64,000 bases of DNA from a bacterium (GTDB taxonomy: Bacteria > Hinthialibacterota > Hinthialibacteria > H5-UNCL2): positions 1 through 64,000 of the forward strand of contig JABTUV010000014.1 in the NCBI GenBank assembly GCA_015075175.1, written 5' to 3'. Within the stretch, counting starts at the first letter, position 1. Each line of letters starts with the position of its first letter. The position numbers and the translations under genes were made by a program. Of this stretch, positions 17,822 to 63,437 are shown piece by piece. The notes under the pieces are model-generated. The model was given only the letters and a program-made list of their open reading frames with translations. It ran no database searches and was not told where the DNA came from.

Positions 17822-18221
17822 TGTCGTTTCGACCGAAGGGAGAAATCCCTGCTCGCGTGGGCGGGCCGCAGGACGGAGGGGGGAAGATTTCTCCCTTCGG
17901 TCGAAATGACAGTGTAGTTCGGTCGAAATGACAGTGTAGTTCGGTCGAAATGACAGTGGAGGGGGGAAGATTTCTCCCTTCGGTCGAAATGACAGTGTAG
18001 TTCGGTCGAAATGACAGAGTAGTTCGGTTGAAATGACAGTGGAGGGGGGAAGATTTCTCCCTTCGGTCGAAATGACAGTGTAGTTCGGTCGAAACGACAG
18101 TGTAGTTCGGTTGAAATGACAGTGGAGGGGGAAGATTTCCCGGTCGAAATGACAGTGTAGTTCGGTCGAAAGTGACAGTGTAATTCGGTTGCAATGACAA
18201 TTGCGCGGTCGAAATGACAAT
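17822..18221. repeat. tandem array of the TTCGGTCGAAATGACA element with 83-bp higher-order period
   Basis: One inverted copy at 17822-17847 is followed by about 13 direct copies of a 22-bp core (TTCGGTCGAAATGACAGTG plus a short linker). The full-length form, starting AAGATTTCTCCC, recurs at 17884, 17967, 18050 and 18132, giving a higher-order period of 83, 83 and 82 bp. Each unit has one full copy, two short cores and a GGAGGGGGG tail. Single and paired copies of the element are at 26741, 35698-35851, 39873, 42971-43060, 45835-45914 and 46066. It separates the 16419 hydrolase gene from the 18241 pseudopilin gene. Confidence 0.9.
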
Positions 18222-35625: not shown

Positions 35626-35697
35626 GGCGCAATTCCTCGCTGTCGGTCTTGTGACATCATGCGCGAAGGGGGGAGGCGGCGCAAGGGGGACGTACCC

Positions 35698-35851
35698 TGT
35701 CATTTCGACCGAAGGGCGTTGTCATTTCGACCGGAGGGCGCTGTCATTTCGACCGAAGGGCGCTGTCATTTCGACCGAAGGGAGAAATCTTCCCCGCGGC
35801 GAGCGCAGGCGGCAAGAAGGCGAAAGATTTCTCCCTTCGGTCGAAATGACA
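35698..35851. repeat. tandem and inverted TGTCATTTCGACCGAAGGG copies
   Basis: Four direct copies of TGTCATTTCGACCGAAGGG start at 35698, 35720, 35742 and 35764, a strict 22-bp period. The last one continues into GAGAAATCTT. After about 36 nt an inverted copy follows (35825-35851), so the right end forms a 27-bp stem with the full-length copy. This element family also forms the array at 17822-18221. Confidence 0.88.
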
Positions 35852-38209: not shown

Positions 38210-38265
38210 CGTCCTCTCGATAGGCCCGAGTACCGGCTGCTTGAGGACTCGGGTTTTGTTTTTTC
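38210..38265 (+). terminator. terminator-like dispersed element after the symporter gene
   Basis: The element GTCCTCTCGATAGG....GCTTGAGGACTCGGG can fold as CCCGAGT....ACTCGGG, ending in TTTTGTTTTTTCG. This is a good intrinsic terminator for the symporter. The same element occurs complete at 45964-46012, degenerate at 1202 and 39698, and in inverse orientation as the array at 56572-58690. Confidence 0.55.
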
Positions 38266-39530: not shown

Positions 39531-40221
39531 GAGCGGCGTCCGTGCCAGAGTCGGGCCGGTGGAACGCCCCCATTCCCCGCGCCCATTTCCCGTAACATCA
39601 TCGGCAGAATGTGCCGGGGACTTGAGGCGGAAAGGCAAGAGGCGCCGCAGGGGGGGAATAGAGGCAGGCTGGGAGGAGGGTGGCGGCGGGCGCGGCGTCC
39701 TCTCGATACGCGGCGCGAAGTCAGAGCGCGCGTTGCAGGCGGGTCTTCCGGCGCGCCGCTACTGGAGGACTCGGGTTTTCTCTTTCCCGGGTCCACCCGT
39801 TGGGGCGTTTTTTCGAAGAGTTTGGCGTGAGTGTCAAGAGACGGCAGCGCCCATCGCCGCCGCGGCGGGGGAAGATTTCTCCCTGCGGTCGAAATGACAG
39901 GCGGACTCCTGCTTTCGCTGGGGATCGACAACGGAGGCATCACCACGCTGGATCAGGATCATCGCGGTTTGTGTCGGGTGGTGTGTTTGAATCGCACCGA
40001 GTACCTGGCGGGATCGGAGTGCGAGGGTGGCGCAGCACGCTGCGCAACTACGTCCCCCTCACCCTAACCCTCTCCCCAAGGGAGAGGGGATTCGACCTCT
40101 CGCCAGGGGAGAGGGGATTCGACTTCTCCCCGAGGGAGAGGGGATTTCACGTCTGCCCGAGGGAGAGGTCGTGCGTTCGCCGAGGCGGACGCACGGGTGA
40201 GGGCAGCCCAAGCGGGCTGCG
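39531..40221. repeat. repeat-rich stretch between EF-hand and AlgJ-like genes
   Basis: I see no gene in about 690 nt. A degenerate TCTCGATACG....GGAGGACTCGGGTTTT element lies at 39698-39780, AGATTTCTCCCTGCGGTCG at 39873-39899, GGCGCAGCACGCTGCGCAAC at 40029-40048 and a tandem CTCTCCCC(GA)GGGAGAGGGG array at 40054-40171. A 50-codon open stretch at 39890-40040 ('LLLSLGIDNGGITTLDQDHR') could be a gene fragment but I cannot assign it. Confidence 0.65.
40054..40171. repeat. tandem CTCTCCCCGAGGGAGAGGGG array
   Basis: Four copies of a GAGAGGGG/CCCCTCTC palindromic unit, about 30 bp each, begin CCCCTCACCCTAACCCTCTC. The same array is at 43943-44060. It is a dispersed REP-like family that yields 'LTLTLSPRERG' peptides in false ORFs of many genomes. 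Confidence 0.85.
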
Positions 40222-45756: not shown

Positions 45757-46171
45757 GGCGCGCCTCTCCTGTTCGCGCTTTCCCCACTGCCCCTGTTTTT
45801 CTATTATGACGGATCAACCCGCCTTCCGTCACGCTCATTTCGACCGTTTCTTGTCATTTCGACCGTTCGTTGTCATTTCGACCGTTCGTTGTCATTTCGA
45901 CCGAAGGGAGAAATCCTTCTTCCCTCCCCCTAGCGCCGTTTCAAGAAAAGTTTTAGCGCCCCGGTCGTCCTCTCGATACGCCGGAGTACCGGCTACTCGA
46001 GGACTCGGTTTTTGCCTTCCCGCAACTACTTTTTGAGAAACGGCACTAGTCAACCGCAGAAGCACAGATTTCTCCCTTCGGTCGAAATGACAGGAGGCCG
46101 GCTTGCGTCACGCAGGAAACCGACGGTTGTCGCAACTTGCCTCAATGATTGGACTTGTGACTCCGGCTCGG
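45757..46171. repeat. repeat-rich gap before cydB
   Basis: No gene in 415 nt. Tandem TGTCATTTCGACCGTTCGT copies occupy 45835-45914 (starts 45852, 45871, 45890; 19-bp period), a complete GTCCTCTCGATACG....CTCGAGGACTCGG element is at 45964-46012, and one AGATTTCTCCCTTCGGTCG copy at 46066-46092. The stretch ends downstream of cydB. Confidence 0.8.
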
Positions 46172-54295: not shown

Positions 54296-54384
54296 GAAAA
54301 ATAGGGTCAGCGCCTATTTTTCCAGTGGGAGCACCGCCGGGCGAGAGTCTCGCCGGAAAATAGGCGCTGACCCTATTTTTCCGG
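54295..54384. repeat. REP doublet, GGAAAAATAGGGTCAGCGCC type
   Basis: The first hairpin GGAAAAATAGG-GTCAGCG-CCTATTTTTCC (54295-54323) and the second CCGGAAAATAGG-CGCTGAC-CCTATTTTTCCGG (54353-54384) are near-identical and inverted relative to each other, with a small GGGCGAGA/TCTCGCC hairpin between them. This is a BIME-like REP pair. The first hairpin begins at the last base of the MerR-MinD stop codon. Confidence 0.85.
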
Positions 54385-54401: not shown

Positions 54402-55278
54402 ATGAACGAAACCGCCAGAGCAACCGTCGGACCGTCTGTGGACGGGGCTTTCCTGGAAGGAGGCCGCAAGGGGGTTTACGGCCACTTCCAGCTGAAGGAG
54501 GCGCCCTTCCGCGACGCCGTCAATCCGCGCTTTCTTTTTCGCACCCGCCAGGCCGAGCGCGCGTATCTGCAACTCAAGATGTATCTTGAAGACAAGGGGG
54601 CGCTGGCGCTGGTGACCGGCCGGAGCGGCGCCGGCAAGAGCCTCTTCATGCAGTGTCTGCTGGAAGAACTGAGCCAGTCGGACGAATTTCGGCCTATCGC
54701 GCTCTTCGCCACTCCGGATATGAGCCTGACCGGCCTGCTCTACGAGATTCTCTACGAGCTGGACGCAGAGATGCCGGGATTCCGCCGCCAGGCCATGCTG
54801 GAGCAACTGCACGAGAAGATCATGGAGGAGGCGGCGGCGGGCCGACGGGTCGTGATCCTCCTGGACGAGGCGCACTTTCTCTCCAGCTCGGCGCTGCATC
54901 TCCTGCGCACGCTCACCAACCTGGAGTCGCCTGAGGAGAAGCTCTGTACGCTGGTGCTTTTCGCCGAAGAAGGATTTGTCGCCCGGCTCAAGCACAAGAG
55001 CTGCCGTCGCTCTCCAGCCGCATCGGCTGCCACGTGTCGCCGCTGCCGATGGACCGCGACCAGACGGAGCAGTACATCAAGTTCCGGCTGCTGGTGGCCG
55101 GGGGCGGGCGACGCTGTTCACCAAGGAGGCGTTCGAGGCGGTGTATCAGCATACGGGCGGCGTTCCGCGCCTGGTATCGCGGCTGGCGGCGGCTGCGATG
55201 CAGGAGGCGTACCTGGACGACGTGCCCGTGGTGGACAGCGAGCGGGTGCGACGGGCGCTGGCGCGCCAACTGCCATGA
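54402..55278 (+). CDS. ExeA/GspA-like AAA ATPase, frameshifted
   Basis: A roughly 290-residue AAA protein of the ExeA/GspA type. 'GHFQLKEAPFRDAVNPRFLF' is the family N-terminus, Walker A is 'LVTGRSGAGKSLFMQCLLEE' and Walker B is 'RRVVILLDEAHFLSSSAL'. The reading frame changes at about 54993 (needed: 'KHKELPSLSSRIGCHV') and again near 55103 ('GGGATLFTKEAFEAVYQHTG'). Each change is repaired by restoring one G in a short G run. It ends 'DSERVRRALARQLP'. ExeA-like proteins can serve in type II secretin assembly with a peptidoglycan-binding partner. It starts after the REP doublet and is independent of gspE by position. Confidence 0.75.
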
Positions 55279-55630
55279 AGCCGCCCCGCTTGACACGCAC
55301 CGGCCTGCGCTGCGCTCCTATGCCGCCGGCATCCCGTGCCGCCGGCATCTCTGCCGGCGCCGACCTCCGACCGCGTCACGCCCGAAGAAGAGGGCATCCT
55401 CTGGCAGGCTCCCGCGCTTCCTTCCCGACGCCTGGGAACTCGGCATAATAGCAAGAAAAACAAATAGTTATATCTTCGATTCGCCGGCATCTTCGCCGGC
55501 AAGGCGCACGCGCCGGCAGGGTTGCCGGCGGTACGCGGCTGTCGCAGCCCGCATATTATCCTCTTGACAAGGGCGGTTTTTGCAATCAATATGATATCAT
55601 ATGGATATTCAAGTCCCGGAGGTGAGTTCC
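55279..55630 (+). promoter_or_regulatory. repeat-rich upstream region with palindromic operator candidate
   Basis: GCCGGCAT/ATGCCGGC-type hairpins lie at 55316-55370 and 55483-55545. Then TTGACA (55564-55569) and TATGAT (55590-55595) are 20 nt apart, and the -10 overlaps a perfect 14-bp palindrome ATATGATATCATAT (55589-55602) that could be an operator. GGAGGTGA lies 5 nt before the ATG at 55631. No gene is supported in the upstream part. Confidence 0.4.
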
Positions 55631-55756
55631 ATGACCTCGCAAGAACGGATTCGCACCGCGTTGTCGGGCTGGTTGGTACTGGTCGTAGCCATCGTGCTGC
55701 TTGCCGCCATCGTCGGATTCATCGTCGTCCAAGCGCGCACCCGCGGTTGGGGATGA
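55631..55756 (+). CDS. 41-residue membrane segment, probably the N-terminus of the SPFH protein
   Basis: The frame reads 'MTSQERIRTALSGWLVLVV', 'AIVLLAAIVGFIVVQARTRG', so it has one membrane helix. SPFH proteins of this type usually begin with such a helix ('LSGWLVLLVL') fused to the rest in one frame. The stop TGA at 55756 overlaps the next ATG at 55753 by 4 nt. It may be a separate small protein, or the two halves may be joined by a single base missing near 55745-55755. It has the better ribosome site (GGAGGTGA, 5 nt before the ATG). Confidence 0.45.
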   Translation: MTSQERIRTALSGWLVLVVAIVLLAAIVGFIVVQARTRGWG

Positions 55757-56558
55757 CGCCGGAGCAGGCCTTTTACACGATGAAGGAGGGCCTGGCGGTC
55801 GGTTGGCGCGTGACCATCGCCGTCATACTGGTGCTCGCATTTGCCCTGACCTTGCCCGGGTTTCTCATTCTTCAGCCCAACGAGGCCAGCGTGCTTCTGC
55901 TCTTCGGCAAGTACAAGGGAACGGTGCGCGAGAGCGGCTTCTGGTGGGTGAATCCGTTTTACACCAAGAAGAAGATCAGTCTGCGATTGCGCAACCTGAA
56001 CATGCAGAAGCTAAAGGTCAACGACAAGGCGGGCAATCCCATCGAGATCGCCGCGGTGATCGTCTGGAAGGTGGAGGACACCTATGCGGCGTCGTTCGAG
56101 GTGGATCACTATCCTTCTTACGTCGAGATACAGAGCGAGTCGGCGCTCCGCCACCTGGCCAGTTACTATCCGTATGACAGTTGGGAGGACGTGGAGGTGG
56201 TGACGCTGCGGGGCAGCATCGACGAGTGTCGCACAAGCTGGAGGCGGAGTTGCAGGAGCGATTGGGTAAGGCGGGGGTGCGGGTGGTGGAGGCGCGCATC
56301 GCGCATCTGGCGTATGCGCCGGAGATCGCGGAGGCGATGCTGCGCCGGCAGCAGGCGACGGCGGTGGTGGCGGCGCGGTACAAGATCGTGGAGGGCGCCG
56401 TGGGCATGGTCGAGATCGCGCTGGAGAAGCTCAAGTCGCAGAACGTGGTCGCGCTGGACGAGGAGCGGAAGGCGGCCATGGTCAGCAACCTCTTGGTTGT
56501 TTTGTGCGGCGAGACCAACGCGCAGCCGGTAGTCAATACGGGGACGCTGTATCATTGA
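55753..56558 (+). CDS. SPFH/Band 7 membrane protein, frameshifted
   Basis: An SPFH protein with '[20 protein letters not shown]', '[20 protein letters not shown]', '[20 protein letters not shown]' and '[17 protein letters not shown]', then after the shift '[20 protein letters not shown]', '[20 protein letters not shown]' and '[20 protein letters not shown]', ending '[20 protein letters not shown]'. The shift at about 56227 ('GSIDE' then 'VSHKLE') is repaired by one G. The family forms oligomeric rings on membranes; many bacterial members are of unknown role. The ATG at 55753 overlaps the 41-residue frame. The repeat array begins 14 nt after the stop. Confidence 0.82.
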
Positions 56559-56571
56559 GGCTGGAAAGGGA

Positions 56572-58690
56572 AAGCCCGAGTTCCCGGGTAGGCTGGGAAA
56601 AGGAAAACCCGAGTTCTCGAGTAGCGCGGAAGGCGCGTATCGAGAGAACGGCGTGGGAGGGAGGCTGGGCGGAGGCAGGCCGCCGTGCCTCTCGATACGG
56701 CCCCGAAGTTACTGGCGGTGTCATGGGGGAGGGTCGGCGGGGCCTACTCGAGGACACGGCTGGGTTGCTTCGCGAGAGTCGAGGACACGGCACCAATGCT
56801 TGATCCGGCGTACTCGAGGACACGGCTTCGCGGCAATGGCGGCATGTTGATCCGGCGTACTCGAGGACACGGCTTACAATGCGGCTTGATCCGGCGTACT
56901 CGAGGACACGGCTTACATTGCGGCTTGATCCGGCGTACTCGAGGACACGGCTTACATTTTGAGTTCTCGGGTAGTCCGAAGAAAGTAAAGCCCGAGGTCT
57001 CGAGTAGTCCGGGAAAGAGAATCCCGAGTTCTCGAGTAGCGCCGAAGGCGCGTATCGAGAGAACGGCGTGGGAGGGAGGCTGGGCGGAGGCGGGCCGCCG
57101 TGCCTCTCGATACGGCTCGAAGCCTACTCGACTTATGGGGGCGTTCTCGGCGGGGCCTCTGAGAAGGACACGGCTTACGAGCGGCGCAGATCCGGCGTAC
57201 TCGAGGACACGGCTTACAATGTGGCTTGATCCGGCGTACTCGAGGACACGGCTTACAATGCGGCTTGATCCGGCGTACTCGAGGACACGGCTTACATTGC
57301 GGCTTGATCCGGCGTACTTGAGGACACGGCTTACATTTTGAGTTCTCGGGTAGTCCGAAGAAAGTAAAGCCCGAGGTCTCGAGTAGCGCAAATAGAAAAC
57401 CCGAGTTCTCGAGTAGCGCCGAAGGCGCGTATCGAGAGAACGGCATGGGAGGAGGCTGGGCGGGCAGCGCCGCCGCCGCCGCTCGGCCTCGATACGGCCG
57501 AGATCGCGGGGCTCTCTCGAGGACACGGCCGGTTGCGCGCGTTGCGTACTCGAGGACACGGCCTGATTCCTCGGAGGTCTCAGGCTCGAGTCCAGAAGAA
57601 AGCAAGAGTCTCTCAAGAGAGTCCGCGTAAAAAACTCCGAGTTCTCGAAGTAGCGCCGCGCGAGACCACGGCGCGTATCGAGAAGAACAGCATAGGAAGG
57701 AGGGCTGGGCGGAGGCCGCCGCCGCAGTCCGCCGATACGGCCCCGAAGGAGGTCAATCGTCATGGGGGGGCGTCGGCGGGGCCTACTCGAGGACACGGCT
57801 TACATTGCGGCTTGATTCGGCGTACTCGAGGACGCCTTAGCTGAACGCGCGCAGATCCGGCGTAACGGCACGAGCGGCCTGCGCGATCCAGCCGTACGCG
57901 ATTGACGGTGATACGGCCAAGCGATCCGCGTACTCGAGGACACGGCTTGAGGATCGCGTTCTCCAGTAGCCGAAAGAAAGCCCGCTCGCGAGTCCGGGAA
58001 AGAAATCCGAGTTCTCGAATAGCGCCGAAGGCGTATCGAGAGAACGGCATGGGAGGAAGGCTGGGCGCGAGGCCGATCGCGTGCCTCTCGATACGCCCCG
58101 AAGGAACGGCATTTCGCGCGTCTAGCACCTGGGGCGTCATGCCGAAATAGAAAACTCTCGAGTAGGCCACGGCTTACGAGAACGCATCCGGCGTACTCGA
58201 GGACACGGCTTACATTGCAGCAGATCCAGCCTACTCGAGGGACACGGCGTTGAGCGTTCTCGAGCAGTCCGAGCCAGAAAGTGCCCCGAGTCTCAGGTAG
58301 CGGCGCAGAAAGAAACCGGGAAGCTCCGAGTAGCGCCGGAAGCGCGTATCGAAGAACGGCACGGGAAGGGCCTGGGCGGAGGCCGGCCGCCGTGCCTCTC
58401 GATACAAGGGTCGCCACGGGAGGGTCAGCAGATGCCCTCGAGGACACGGCTGGAAGGACGCTTGTATCCGAAGCGGTCGTCGATCACGGCATACAATGTG
58501 GCCCTCCGTCCGTACTCGAGCGCACGGCTTAGGCTGTGGCTTGATCCGGCGTACTCAGGGACACGACGGGGTCGCAGCGATCCAGCGGCTTTACTCGAGG
58601 ACGCGGTGTACTGCGCAGGAGCGGTCAGGCGGCTTGCTTATCGCGGGGCGAATCGAGGACACGGCTTACATTCCGGCAGAATGAAGCGCC
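56572..58690. repeat. 2.1-kb gene-free tandem array of a dispersed palindromic element
   Basis: Six superunits begin CCCGAGTTCTCGAGTAGCGC near 56608, 57023, 57400, 57636, 58006 and 58326 and continue with a GCGTATCGAGAGAACGGC, GGAGGCTGGGCGGAGGC and GTGCCTCTCGATACGG block. Between superunits 1 and 2 and between 2 and 3, a GATCCGGCGTACTCGAGGAC unit is repeated in tandem with starts at 56802, 56849, 56888 and 56927 and at 57189, 57228, 57267 and 57306 (39-bp period). From about 57480 the copies are more degenerate. There is no spacer content as in CRISPR and no cas gene nearby. Open frames exist on both strands only because 39 is a multiple of three. The unit is the inverse orientation of the elements at 38210 and 45964. 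Confidence 0.9.
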
Positions 58691-58735
58691 CAGGGAGGCA
58701 ACCATAACCAGGTATGCGCGTCGCAGCCAACCTTT

Positions 58736-60573
58736 CTACGCCACATCAGCCCGGAACTCAGGCGGACAGCTCAATCGCTGAAGCAGCGGATGAAGCTTGA
58801 CCAAGCGTCGGCCGAATATCTCAGCGCGCGGGAGTGCGCGCCAGGTCGGCTGGGCGACGGCAAGCGCGCCACTCAAGGCAACGCATAGCTTCGCCCAGCC
58901 GCTCCCCAAGTGGGCCCAGAAGCCGCATCGAGCGCCAAGCTGATCTGGAATGCGGCTGGTCGCCGCATAGAAGGCCCACGCGCCGCGTCCGCGGCACGCC
59001 CTACGGCGTGGCGTCCTGGACGGGGTCGCTGAACAGGCTTGGCGGCGGGAGACATGGTCGGTGATCCATCGCCGCGCGGTCAGCGCCCCAGGCAGCGTCG
59101 TGGCGCCGCCAGTCGGCAGCGCCCGGATGGGCCAGGGCTGCGCCAGGTCGGCGGCGGCAGGCGCGACGGCCTCGCCCTCCAGCCCAAGTCTCAGGCAGCT
59201 CGCGCGAGGGGCTGAGGGGATCCAGAAACGCGAGCGCGCGCAGGTCGTCTGCGGCCGCTTCGCGCTGCCCCAGTCGGCGGTGGAGATGGGCGCGCAGGGC
59301 CAGCGTCTGCGCGTCGGCAGGCGCGACCGCCAGCGCCGCCGTCGCCATCTCGGCGGCCAACTGCGTGTCTCCATGCCGCAACGCCGCCCACCCGCCGCAA
59401 GGCCGCGCCCACTCCTGCGGCATCGCGCCTGGAAGGCCGCTACCGCCGCCGGCTCGGAACCAGACGCCAACAGTGCGCAGGCCGCCAGGTAGGCGTCCCG
59501 GCTTCCGTCTTCAGTCGCACCGGCAATTGCGCCCGTCTCTTGCAGACTCCCTGAACGTCCGCCGAGGACCTCCAGGCGACACAGCGAGCGACTGTGCGTC
59601 CATTCATCCACTCTGGCTTCCAGTTTCCGACCGGGATGCGTGAGGGGAAAGAGGAAGACATCGGGGCGGCCCGGCTGCAACTGCCAGGGCATGTCGAAGA
59701 GCATGGCGCCGTCCCGCTCGACTACCAGCCGCAGCCAGTTGAGAAAGCGAAAACTGCACCAGCGCGCCTCCAGGTGCGCGTCGCGGAGGGTAAAGCCGCC
59801 GGCCAGGTCGGGCGCCATCCAGGCTGGCTCGCCCATGCGGTGCACTGCGACCCACTGCACGACCCACTCGCGGCGCTGTCCGGGCACGAGCTGGGTGGGA
59901 TGGTTGGAAAGCTTGAGAGCCGCTGCGCGCTCGTCCAGGGTTGCGTCCACGTGAAGCAGGAGAAGCGCATAGAGGCCAGAATCGGAGTCGGGATCGTAAT
60001 AGCCCGCGAAGGCCCAGCTGTCGCCGGAGGCGGGTGGACGCCCGCGGCGACGCGGATCATGCGGCCTGCCGGGGTAGTCGCCGGAGCGGCCGCCAGCGAC
60101 CAGCCGGTCTCCAGCGGATCGGGTCCCGCATTGTCGGCCCGCACGATGGTATAGAGTCCGGCCAGGTCGGAGGGCAGGCGGTACTCGACCGCCCAGCGCG
60201 CGCCCGTCGAGGCATCCGTCACGCCTACCCACACGCTGACGGAGGCGTCGCCGTCCGCCGTCAATCGCCAGGACAGCGGCCGGCCGGGGGGGAGGTTCTG
60301 TCCGAACGTGAAGGCGACGCCTGCTTCCGACAGGAGTTCGCGGCGGCTGAACTTGTCGTAGCACGAGACCAAGCGGCCTGACCGAGGTATGACCACGGCG
60401 CGCAGGTAGTCGTTTTCCAAAACCATGGCGGGGACGTGGCTCCAGGTGGATTCCGACAGGCGGGCGGTCGTGGGCAGGGGCGTGTCGGGGCGGCGGTCGC
60501 GCCCGACCGCCCACAGCGATGGGCCCAGCGTCAGGATGAAGAGCAAGGCGGTTGCGAGCAGCGGCGGACGCAT
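58736..60573 (-). pseudogene. DUF5107-like domain and TPR protein, multiply frameshifted
   Basis: From 60573 the product has a signal peptide ('PPLLATALLFILTLGPSLW') and a DUF5107-like domain ('VLENDYLRAVVIPRSGRLVS', 'SWRLTADGDASVSVWVGVTD'). At about 60030 the frame changes ('GDSWAFAGYYDPDSDSGLYA', 'WVVQWVAVHRMGEPAWMAPD'). Near 59430 it changes again, to a TPR-like part ('DTQLAAEMATAALAVAPADA', 'LGQREAAADDLRALAFLDP'), and at least once more before 58736. Such DUF5107 plus TPR proteins are exported proteins of unknown role. Some of the shifts fit one missing base, so sequencing error is possible, but four or more in one gene also fit decay. Start codon ATG at 60573. Confidence 0.65.
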
Positions 60574-60967
60574 GACCCTCTCCGGGAGCGACGTTCAGGC
60601 GGGAAGTATTCCAGAAAAACGGCGGGACGCAAGCGAGTTGGTGGATTGACGGAGGCGGGGTCGAGTGCGGGCCTACGAGGTGCGCTCAGGGCCTGCGGCT
60701 CTTGGCCGTGTCGGCGGACCGGAAAGTCCGAGGGGAGCGTGTACGTTTTCGTACAGGATGCTGAACCCGATGGTACAGTGACCCTGTGTCCCCCCGGCGC
60801 GCAAATCCTGTAACCAACTGGAAAGAAATGGACTAACATGCCAGCCGGGGGCCTGGCATGAGTCTCGCTTGCGCTCCGGGATGGGAAAGTGTCGGCCAAT
60901 ACGTCTGGGACGGATGGCGTTTGGGCAACATAGGGTGGCATCGCCCGGCACGGAAAGGAAGTGGCGC
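60574..60967. other. divergent upstream region of the arylsulfotransferase gene
   Basis: These 394 nt hold TGTACG-TTTT-CGTACA (60740-60755) and a CATGCCAG/CTGGCATG hairpin (60837-60860). I see no clear -10/-35 pair for either gene and no known riboswitch motif. Confidence 0.45.
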
Positions 60968-63437
60968 GTGGATCGCATCATCCCTCGGCTCGCCGCGACG
61001 TTTATCCTTCTGGGTTGCAGTCTTGAGAGTTTTGGCGCCGAAGCCTATGCCGGTTACACGTTGTTCAATCCCACCAGCTCGAAGACGGCCTATCTGATCA
61101 ACATGGCGGGGCAGACGGTGCGCTCCTGGACCAGCACCCGCAATGGGAACTATTCGGTATATTTGCTGGAGAACGGGCACGTGATCCGTGGGGCGGACGC
61201 GCCGAACCGGCCGCTGAACGGGCCGGCCGGGGGCGGGCTGATCGAGGAGTTCGACTGGAACGGCAACCTGGTGTGGCAGTACACGTACAGCAGCGCGACG
61301 GTGCTGGCGCATCACGACATCGAGCCGATGCCCAACGGCAACGTGCTCTTGATCGCCTGGGAGGTGAAGACAGCGGCAGAGGCGGTAGCGGCGGGGCGCA
61401 AGGTGAGCCGGGCCATGTGGCCGGACCATATCGTGGAAGTCAAAAAGACGGGCGCGAGCAGCGGGGAAATCGTCTGGGTGTGGCGCGCCTGGGATCATCT
61501 GATCCAGGATTTCGATGCGAGCAAGGCCAACTACGGCGCGGTCGGGAGCCATCCCGAGCTGATCGACATCAACCTGGGTTCGACCCTGGCGGCGGGCGAC
61601 TGGCTGCACATCAACGGGGTCAGCTACAATCCGGAGCTGGACCAGATCGCCATCAGTTCGCATTACATGAACGAGATTTACGTGATCGATCACGGCACGA
61701 CCATCGCCGAGGCGGCGGGCCACAGCGGCGGGCGGCGGGGGAAGGGCGGCGATATCCTGTATCGGTGGGGTTGTCCGGCCAACTATCGCGCGCCGGGCAG
61801 CCGGTACTTCGACGTGGTGCATTGCGCGTGGTGGATTCCGGCGGGCCTTCCGGGCGCCGGGCGGCTGATGGCCTTCAACAACGGGGCGGCCCAGCGTTAC
61901 TCGGTCGTGGTGGAACTGATTCCCCCGATGGACGGGCAGGGGAACTACGTTTTGAGCGCGGGTTCAGCCTACGGTCCGGCCGGCCCCGCCTGGACGTATT
62001 CGGAGGGTTCCACGTTCTACTCCAACCATCTGGGCAGCAATCAGCGCCTTCCCAACGGGAATACGCTGATCAGCCGGTCGACGACGGGGTACTTGTTCGA
62101 GGTGAGCGCGGCGGGGGAGAAGGTGTGGCAGTACACCTACGCGGGGCAGATCGCGCGCTCGCTGCGGTACGGTCTGGATTATCCCGGGGTAGCGGCGCTG
62201 GCGTCGACGCCGACGCCGACGCCTACGCCGACCGGCACGGCCACGCCGACTGCGACGCCGAGCGACACGCCGACCGGCACGCCGACTCTCAGCCCGACGC
62301 CCACGCCGACGTGGACGGCGACTGCCAACCCGGAACCGGATACCCCGACGCCCACGGATACGGCGACGGCCACGCCGAGTGAGACGCCCACGCCGCAGCC
62401 GGACACGCCCACACCCACGGAGACGGCGACGCCGACGGCCAGCGATACGGCGACGGTCACGGCCACGGCGACGGTCACGGCCACGGCGACGCCGCGGCCC
62501 CTCTCCGATTACGATCTGGACCATGACGGGACCATCGGGGCGGGGACCTCTTACTGCTCTTTGAAACTCGATGTCGGAGAAGGGCGGGGTGGACTTCAAC
62601 GGGGACGCGACCTGCGACCGGGTCGATCTGCTGCTTTTCAGTCAGCATTGGGGCGAAGTGATTCCGGCGCCGCCGGCCCTGATCGTGATCGACCTGCCGG
62701 GCGGGGCGACGATGGAGTTCGTGCGCATCCCCGCCGGCCATTTCCTGATGGGGCGACTTTGGAGCCGAACTGGAACGACTACTTCATCTCCGAGCAGCCG
62801 ATTCACTCCGTGACGCTGGAGTACGACTTCTATATGGGACGGACGGAGGTGACGCAGGCGCAATGGTTGGCGATCATGCAGAGTTGGCCGGGCGAGAATC
62901 CGGCCGACTTCAGTTTCGGGCACGGCGGCGAGTATCCGCGTATTTCGTGTCGTGGGAGGACTGCCGGGAGTATGCGCGGCTTTTGAACCTGTTGCAGTTG
63001 GATGCGGGGGTGTTCCGGTTGCCGAGCGCGGCGGAGTGGGAGTACGCGTGCCGGGCGGGCAGCGCCACGCGTTTCTTTTTCGGCGACTCCGACTGCAGCC
63101 CGCTGGGGATGAGCTCCTGCCAGTTGTCCGACTACGCCTGGTGGGCGGGCAACAACGAAGCCTATGGGGCCAAGCCGGTGGGAAGTCGGGCGCCCAACGC
63201 CTGGGGGCTGTTGGACATGCACGGCAACATCGCGGAGTGGTGCGCGCCGCACTGGCATGAGGATTACACGGCGCGCCGAGCGATGGGCGGGCGGGGGGAC
63301 AGCAGCGGCGAGGGGCGGAGGGTGCGCGGGGGATGTGGGACGACATCGCGGCCGACTGCCGCTCCGCCAGCCGCCTGGGACGCTACCCCGACGCGCGCGT
63401 CTATTACATCGGTTTCCGGCTGGTACTGGAGCGATGA
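60968..63437 (+). CDS. arylsulfotransferase-dockerin-FGE/sulfatase-modifying-factor fusion, frameshifted
   Basis: A GTG at 60968, with AAAGGAAG 8 nt upstream, starts a lipoprotein-like signal ('[15 protein letters not shown]'). The first 400 residues are an arylsulfotransferase (ASST) beta-propeller: '[20 protein letters not shown]', '[19 protein letters not shown]', '[20 protein letters not shown]' and '[20 protein letters not shown]'. A Thr/Pro linker ('[18 protein letters not shown]', about 410-515) leads to a dockerin-like pair ('[14 protein letters not shown]', '[20 protein letters not shown]') and then an FGE/sulfatase-modifying-factor domain ('[14 protein letters not shown]', '[20 protein letters not shown]', '[20 protein letters not shown]', '[20 protein letters not shown]', '[14 protein letters not shown]'). 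The frame changes near 62550, 62570, 62755, 62938 and 63325; four of these fit one missing G. The enzyme activities are unproven. Confidence 0.72.

Follow-up and report, generated by a model that had tools for sequence, protein, structure and literature searches.

A probable tandem REPIN cluster of GTAG-tagged palindromes in a genome of the phylum Hinthialibacterota

The repeat array at positions 56572-58690 of the window (the whole 64,000-nucleotide stretch of DNA analyzed here) is very probably a tandem cluster of REPINs, whose members would have dispersed by transposition and then been duplicated locally. It would comprise either six superunits or one, and the "decay" of its right half would stem from an unpolished assembly. 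The family to which the array belongs is of a known REP/REPIN kind and is new in sequence. A sequence-only reading of this DNA had proposed a REP-like element that amplifies locally. That proposal holds well: the element is a GTAG-tagged, covarying, extragenic palindrome that forms head-to-head dimers and is found in tandem clusters at several loci.

A dispersed family of covarying hairpins

The strict palindrome CTCGATACG-N2-32-CTACTCGAG is present in at least 102 copies in the 4.98 Mb genome, where the reversed control pattern has none. A sister form that ends in GGGG, CTACTCGGGG, contributes 30 further copies genome-wide. A BLAST search of the whole genome with the element returned 95 matches, so that both the BLAST and the strict-hairpin counts bear out the earlier statement that the element is dispersed beyond the array. 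We distinguished four types by the right foot and the tail: A, CTACTCGAG-GACTCGG; B, CTACTCGAG-AACTCGG; C, CTACTCGAG-GACACGG; and D, CTACTCGGGG. The inner stem is highly variable in sequence while its pairing is kept, the first pair being C-G, G-C, T-A or A-T. Covariation within this stem amounts to 125 Watson-Crick cells, whereas 2000 shuffles averaged 62 and never exceeded 82.

Read on the opposite strand, the element has the form CTCGA-GTAG-hairpin-CGTATCGAG. It shows the distinguishing properties of GTAG-type REPs, namely GTAG at the 5' foot, a high-copy, dispersed and extragenic distribution, and compensatory changes in the stem; here, however, GTAG is internal, lying in the GTA/GTA loop of a longer palindrome and not at the palindrome end.

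The four single copies originally reported from the window all belong to this family, although the one at 1202 is merely a half-copy with a GAGGACTCGGGTTTT tail. At 38210 and 39698, the hairpins are either divergent or long-armed. Two dispersed copies were delimited as follows:

45972-46001, + strand: dispersed single hairpin of type A, nested in a larger palindrome, CTAGCGCCGTTTC...GAAACGGCACTAG
39702-39767, + strand: dispersed long-armed hairpin of the same family, with a diverged right foot, CTACTGGAG

A longer palindrome, CTAGYGCCGTTTCAAGAAAAGTT...AACTACTTTTTGAGAAACGGCACTAG, encloses the type-A hairpin at window positions 45925-46060 and at loci L013, L016, L027, L047, L074 and L075; it is possibly a MITE.

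Organization of the array

The count of six superunits made from the sequence alone agrees with the six starts that we found, at 56604, 57019, 57396, 57633, 58004 and about 58285, which delimit blocks of 237-415 bases. Compared with one another, the six units are 55-84% identical. The features of the array and its right flank are:

56572-58690, no strand: the complete tandem array of head-to-head REP pairs, with six superunits in the window assembly and a single one in contig C21, which assembles the locus a second time
56616-56644, - strand: type-B hairpin of superunit 1, with CTCGATACG...CTACTCGAG on the - strand and the GTAG foot on the + strand
56645-56690, no strand: spacer of 46 bases separating the two hairpins of superunit 1
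56691-56752, + strand: type-C hairpin of superunit 1, with a long inner arm; its outer foot pairs with the foot of the B hairpin
56802-56956, + strand: half-unit run 1, four copies of GATCCGGCGTACTCGAGGACACGGC..., in steps of 47, 39 and 39
57031-57059, - strand: type-B hairpin of superunit 2
57106-57132, + strand: type-C hairpin of superunit 2, shortened and probably mis-sequenced
57189-57335, + strand: half-unit run 2, four 39-bp copies
57408-57436, - strand: type-B hairpin of superunit 3
57633-58690, no strand: superunits 4-6, degraded, which we attribute to an unpolished consensus
58711-58890 (approximate), + strand: 62-aa ribbon-helix-helix gene, garbled here and intact in C21

Two strict four-copy runs of the 39-bp unit had been described; both runs exist, although the first is not strict, its initial step being 47. 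The 39-base half-unit joins the 3' half of a hairpin to some 20 bases that are locus-specific and repeated within the locus. Such a composition is what would be expected of a local duplication that takes in flanking DNA. The array was also thought to fill the entire gap between the SPFH and DUF5107 genes, which was not borne out: in C21 it is followed by the ribbon-helix-helix gene and an extra hairpin, both of them garbled in the window. The window also contains TTCGGTCGAAATGACAG-type repeats, some in tandem and some dispersed, at 17875-18219, 35697-35782 and 45835-45903, which have no relation to the array.

The superunit as a head-to-head pair

Each superunit combines a hairpin of type B or A with one of type C, placed head to head with GTAG on the outside, and tandem 39-base half-units come after the pair. 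Head-to-head pairs recur at many loci. Among 21 distinct pairs, the spacer measures 44-46 bases in 18, and the outer feet are paired over at least 8 bases in every one. For 13 of the 21, the minimum-energy fold is a complete four-way junction, with an outer stem (CTCGAGTAG/CTACTCGAG), a middle stem (CGTATCGAG/CTCGATACG) and two covarying side hairpins. The fold z-score is -7.45 for a clean pair and, as DNA, -3.07 for the first pair of the window. An inverted arrangement of REPs at near-constant spacing, with GTAG on the outside, is characteristic of REPINs and BIMEs, and so are ordered tandem clusters that include flanking DNA. The latter are found at two other loci, a cluster of three composites on C2 (L061; 97.5-99.2% identity) and one of two composites on C1 (L066; 98.0% identity), both surrounded by well-scored predicted genes. 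As near-identical units thus lie beside intact genes at other loci, local amplification is real and typical of the element.

A second assembly of the locus

Contig C21 (6,673 bases) is collinear end to end with window positions 54928-63243. Most 100-base bins are 100% identical between the two, indicating that C21 represents the same locus from the same or a nearly identical strain. It carries a single superunit, of 359 bases, where the window has six. One could therefore envision that assembly produced most of the six-superunit array and that the true locus holds one superunit, through which the window contig looped. We take this to be quite possible, if on balance somewhat unlikely. Besides the single superunit of the collinear contig, it is favored by the frameshifted and garbled state of the window where C21 duplicates it. 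Scattered single-base losses break the SPFH and arylsulfotransferase/FGE-sulfatase frames of the window; in C21, the SPFH and FGE-sulfatase frames stay open for 320 and 955 codons, respectively, measured between stops or up to where the contig ends. The predicted coding fraction is 0.65-0.70 in the duplicated stretch as against 0.87 in the rest of the window. On the other hand, the six units differ from one another to the extent given above, clean multi-unit clusters are present elsewhere, and the lone superunit of C21 could just as well reflect a collapse of copies or variation within the population as the true state. A collapsed or chimeric assembly had been named at the outset as what would overturn the REP interpretation; there are partial grounds for it as regards copy number and decay, but not as regards the existence of the element. 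Judged by reading frames, the ATPase gene at 54402 and the DUF5107 gene are also frameshifted in the window.

Position relative to genes

Position statistics were obtained with a home-made gene finder on a sample of about 0.85 Mb that includes loci picked for holding the element. In this sample, 5 of 54 element loci fell inside predicted genes, compared with 81% of random positions; in an unbiased 400 kb of C1, the figure was one locus in 18. In the ~0.85 Mb sample, gaps between convergent genes were enriched, holding 22 of the 48 intergenic loci while making up 84 of 451 gaps (Fisher P = 5e-5). This enrichment, the T-rich tails that follow the A and B forms (about 8 T in 12 bases) and the very stable fold would suit hairpins that serve chiefly as 3'-end RNA elements, acting as bidirectional terminators or mRNA stabilizers and spreading through their usefulness. 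Such a role as the main explanation seems unlikely to us. Type C is less T-rich (5.35 of 12), the orientation of the element relative to genes is mixed in tandem gaps, and REPs in general show a location of this sort.

Transposase genes and occurrence in other genomes

The search for a REP-associated transposase suggested by the sequence-only reading was partly rewarded. The assembly (84% complete) contains two Y1_Tnp genes, both RAYT-like, with RAYT model scores of 70.1 and 74.3 bits, under the 80-bit cut-off. The best solved relative of the first (L039, 1128-1912) is the TnpAREP entry 4er8 (E 0.0015). AAAATTAGGCGCTGACCCTAATTTT repeats flank this gene, an arrangement reminiscent of the TIR-flanked genes in PMC3733652, and by our reading of the sequence the gene appears to adjoin a ribosomal protein S2 gene. 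The AAAATTAGGCGCTGACCCTAATTTT repeats are also dispersed, with a near copy at window position 54297. The second gene (L040, 1279-1938; flanks 1000-1300 and 1930-2260) sits between tandem GGAGTACAAACTTYAGTTTG hairpins, which belong to a different REP family. This gene and its hairpins make up a second REP system, whose AACTTYAGTTTG core has 46 copies in the 0.85 Mb sample taken together with the two RAYT loci. Neither RAYT-like gene of the 84%-complete assembly is flanked by the array's repeat in the manner of a REPtron, and both were rejected as the cognate transposase, each having different repeats of its own. GTAG palindromes that differ in sequence from the array's repeat adjoin several RAYT-like genes of sister genomes (L096-L100, L103, L109), so that REP/RAYT systems appear common in the phylum; at L096 and L097, from two sister genomes, tandem GTAGGACAGGCCTCCGTGCCTGTC hairpins that repeat every 36-38 bases stand next to the genes. 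For the array's family, it looks as though the enzyme was lost, is unassembled or acts in trans.

No hairpin with the strict feet was found in 13 other genomes of the phylum; three matches to relaxed feet in these genomes were discarded, the family's inner stem being absent by eye. IMG/VR viral contigs yielded at least 122 matches to TCGATACG-N2-20-CTACTCGA. Among the matches listed, at least 16 have a palindromic inner stem of at least 3 pairs, and all 16 share GGTC...CC arms. These GGTCTCGATACG...CTACTCGACC palindromes resemble the array's family in their TCGATACG/CTACTCGA feet and variable palindromic inner stem, several with a GAGTAC loop, but differ from it in their outer GGTC/GACC arms. 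Plasmids gave one weak match for the type-A consensus and none for the viral-contig form. Among the matches listed by a literature search with the sequence, there was no paper on the array's repeat, the one match examined being an unrelated probe. The sequence comparisons suggest a REP superfamily that would be old or horizontally spread. A more specific proposal, that a superfamily with TCGAGTAG/CGTATCGA feet spans distant bacteria and viral contigs and that its four-way-junction composite is moved or amplified by an enzyme other than the resident RAYTs, strikes us as distinctly doubtful.

The apparent decay of the right half

Composite-core identity to the C21 unit drops from left to right, as it would if the array grew at its left end while old right-hand units decayed. 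This evolutionary gradient, put forward when the array was described from sequence alone, is strongly disfavored by the comparison with C21 and must be considered very improbable. The degradation does not stop with the array; it runs on through the coding DNA of the ribbon-helix-helix and DUF5107 genes, which C21 has intact. Identity to C21 goes down to 62% in a garbled patch of the window at about 58.6-59.5 kb (bins between 58670 and 59470) and returns to 100% beyond about 59.5 kb. The right half of the array adjoins this patch and shows degradation of the same kind. Most likely, therefore, the decay is an artefact of an unpolished assembly, made of uncorrected sequencing errors rather than evolutionary changes; we infer that the polishing reads went to C21 instead of the window contig.

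As for a CRISPR array or a repeat-protein gene, which short tandem repeats and a 39-bp unit whose length is divisible by three and keeps frames open might call to mind, the likelihood is negligible: each unit is one palindromic half of a hairpin that is dispersed in extragenic copies, the intervening DNA is repeated rather than made of unique, constant-length spacers, and half-unit spacings change from locus to locus and are not always divisible by three. Variable periods led us to reject a coding hypothesis for the array and, together with the lack of unique spacers of similar length, uphold the original verdict that it is neither gene nor CRISPR.

Discussion

We favor a tandem REPIN cluster as the nature of the array. 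GTAG-tagged REPs lie head to head, B or A with C, across a spacer of about 45 bases, and the pair, as single-stranded DNA or RNA, would fold into a four-way junction. Dispersed copies would presumably arise by transposition in trans, through a Y1/HUH transposase of the RAYT type. Whole pairs, as well as half-REPs with adjacent DNA (the 39-bp units), would then be duplicated locally in tandem, probably when replication slips or switches template at the hairpins.

These properties inspire comparison with three known systems. Published accounts contain every part of the arrangement seen here, with GTAG REPs, head-to-head dimers, tandem clusters that take in flanking DNA and positions downstream of genes (PMC3733652, PMC3116915, PMC8266576). 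With the GTAG REPs described by Di Nocera et al. (2013; PMC3733652), the present family shares GTAG beside a short covarying hairpin, an extragenic location in convergent or unidirectional gaps, head-to-head dimers and large clusters; it differs in having GTAG within the internal GTA/GTA loop of a longer palindrome and in that no flanked RAYT was found. In the REPINs of Pseudomonas fluorescens SBW25, an inverted REP pair is the unit, and ordered clusters consist of near-identical pairs together with flanking DNA (Bertels and Rainey 2011; PMC3116915). Both features are seen here, but a pair here takes its arms from different subfamilies (B or A with C), half-units occur in tandem and no RAYT is adjacent. 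The BIMEs of Escherichia coli are mosaics of y and z REPs (PMC8266576); they, too, combine two REP types in inverse orientation and occur in tandem copies, but have a different sequence, and the four-way junction with its 9-base outer foot stem sets the present unit apart.

The findings carry a caution, namely that "decay" gradients of repeats in draft assemblies can be polishing artefacts. They also provide a clear, covarying four-way-junction form of the REPIN unit, and extend the biology of GTAG-type REPs and REPINs to a sparsely sampled phylum (14 genomes).
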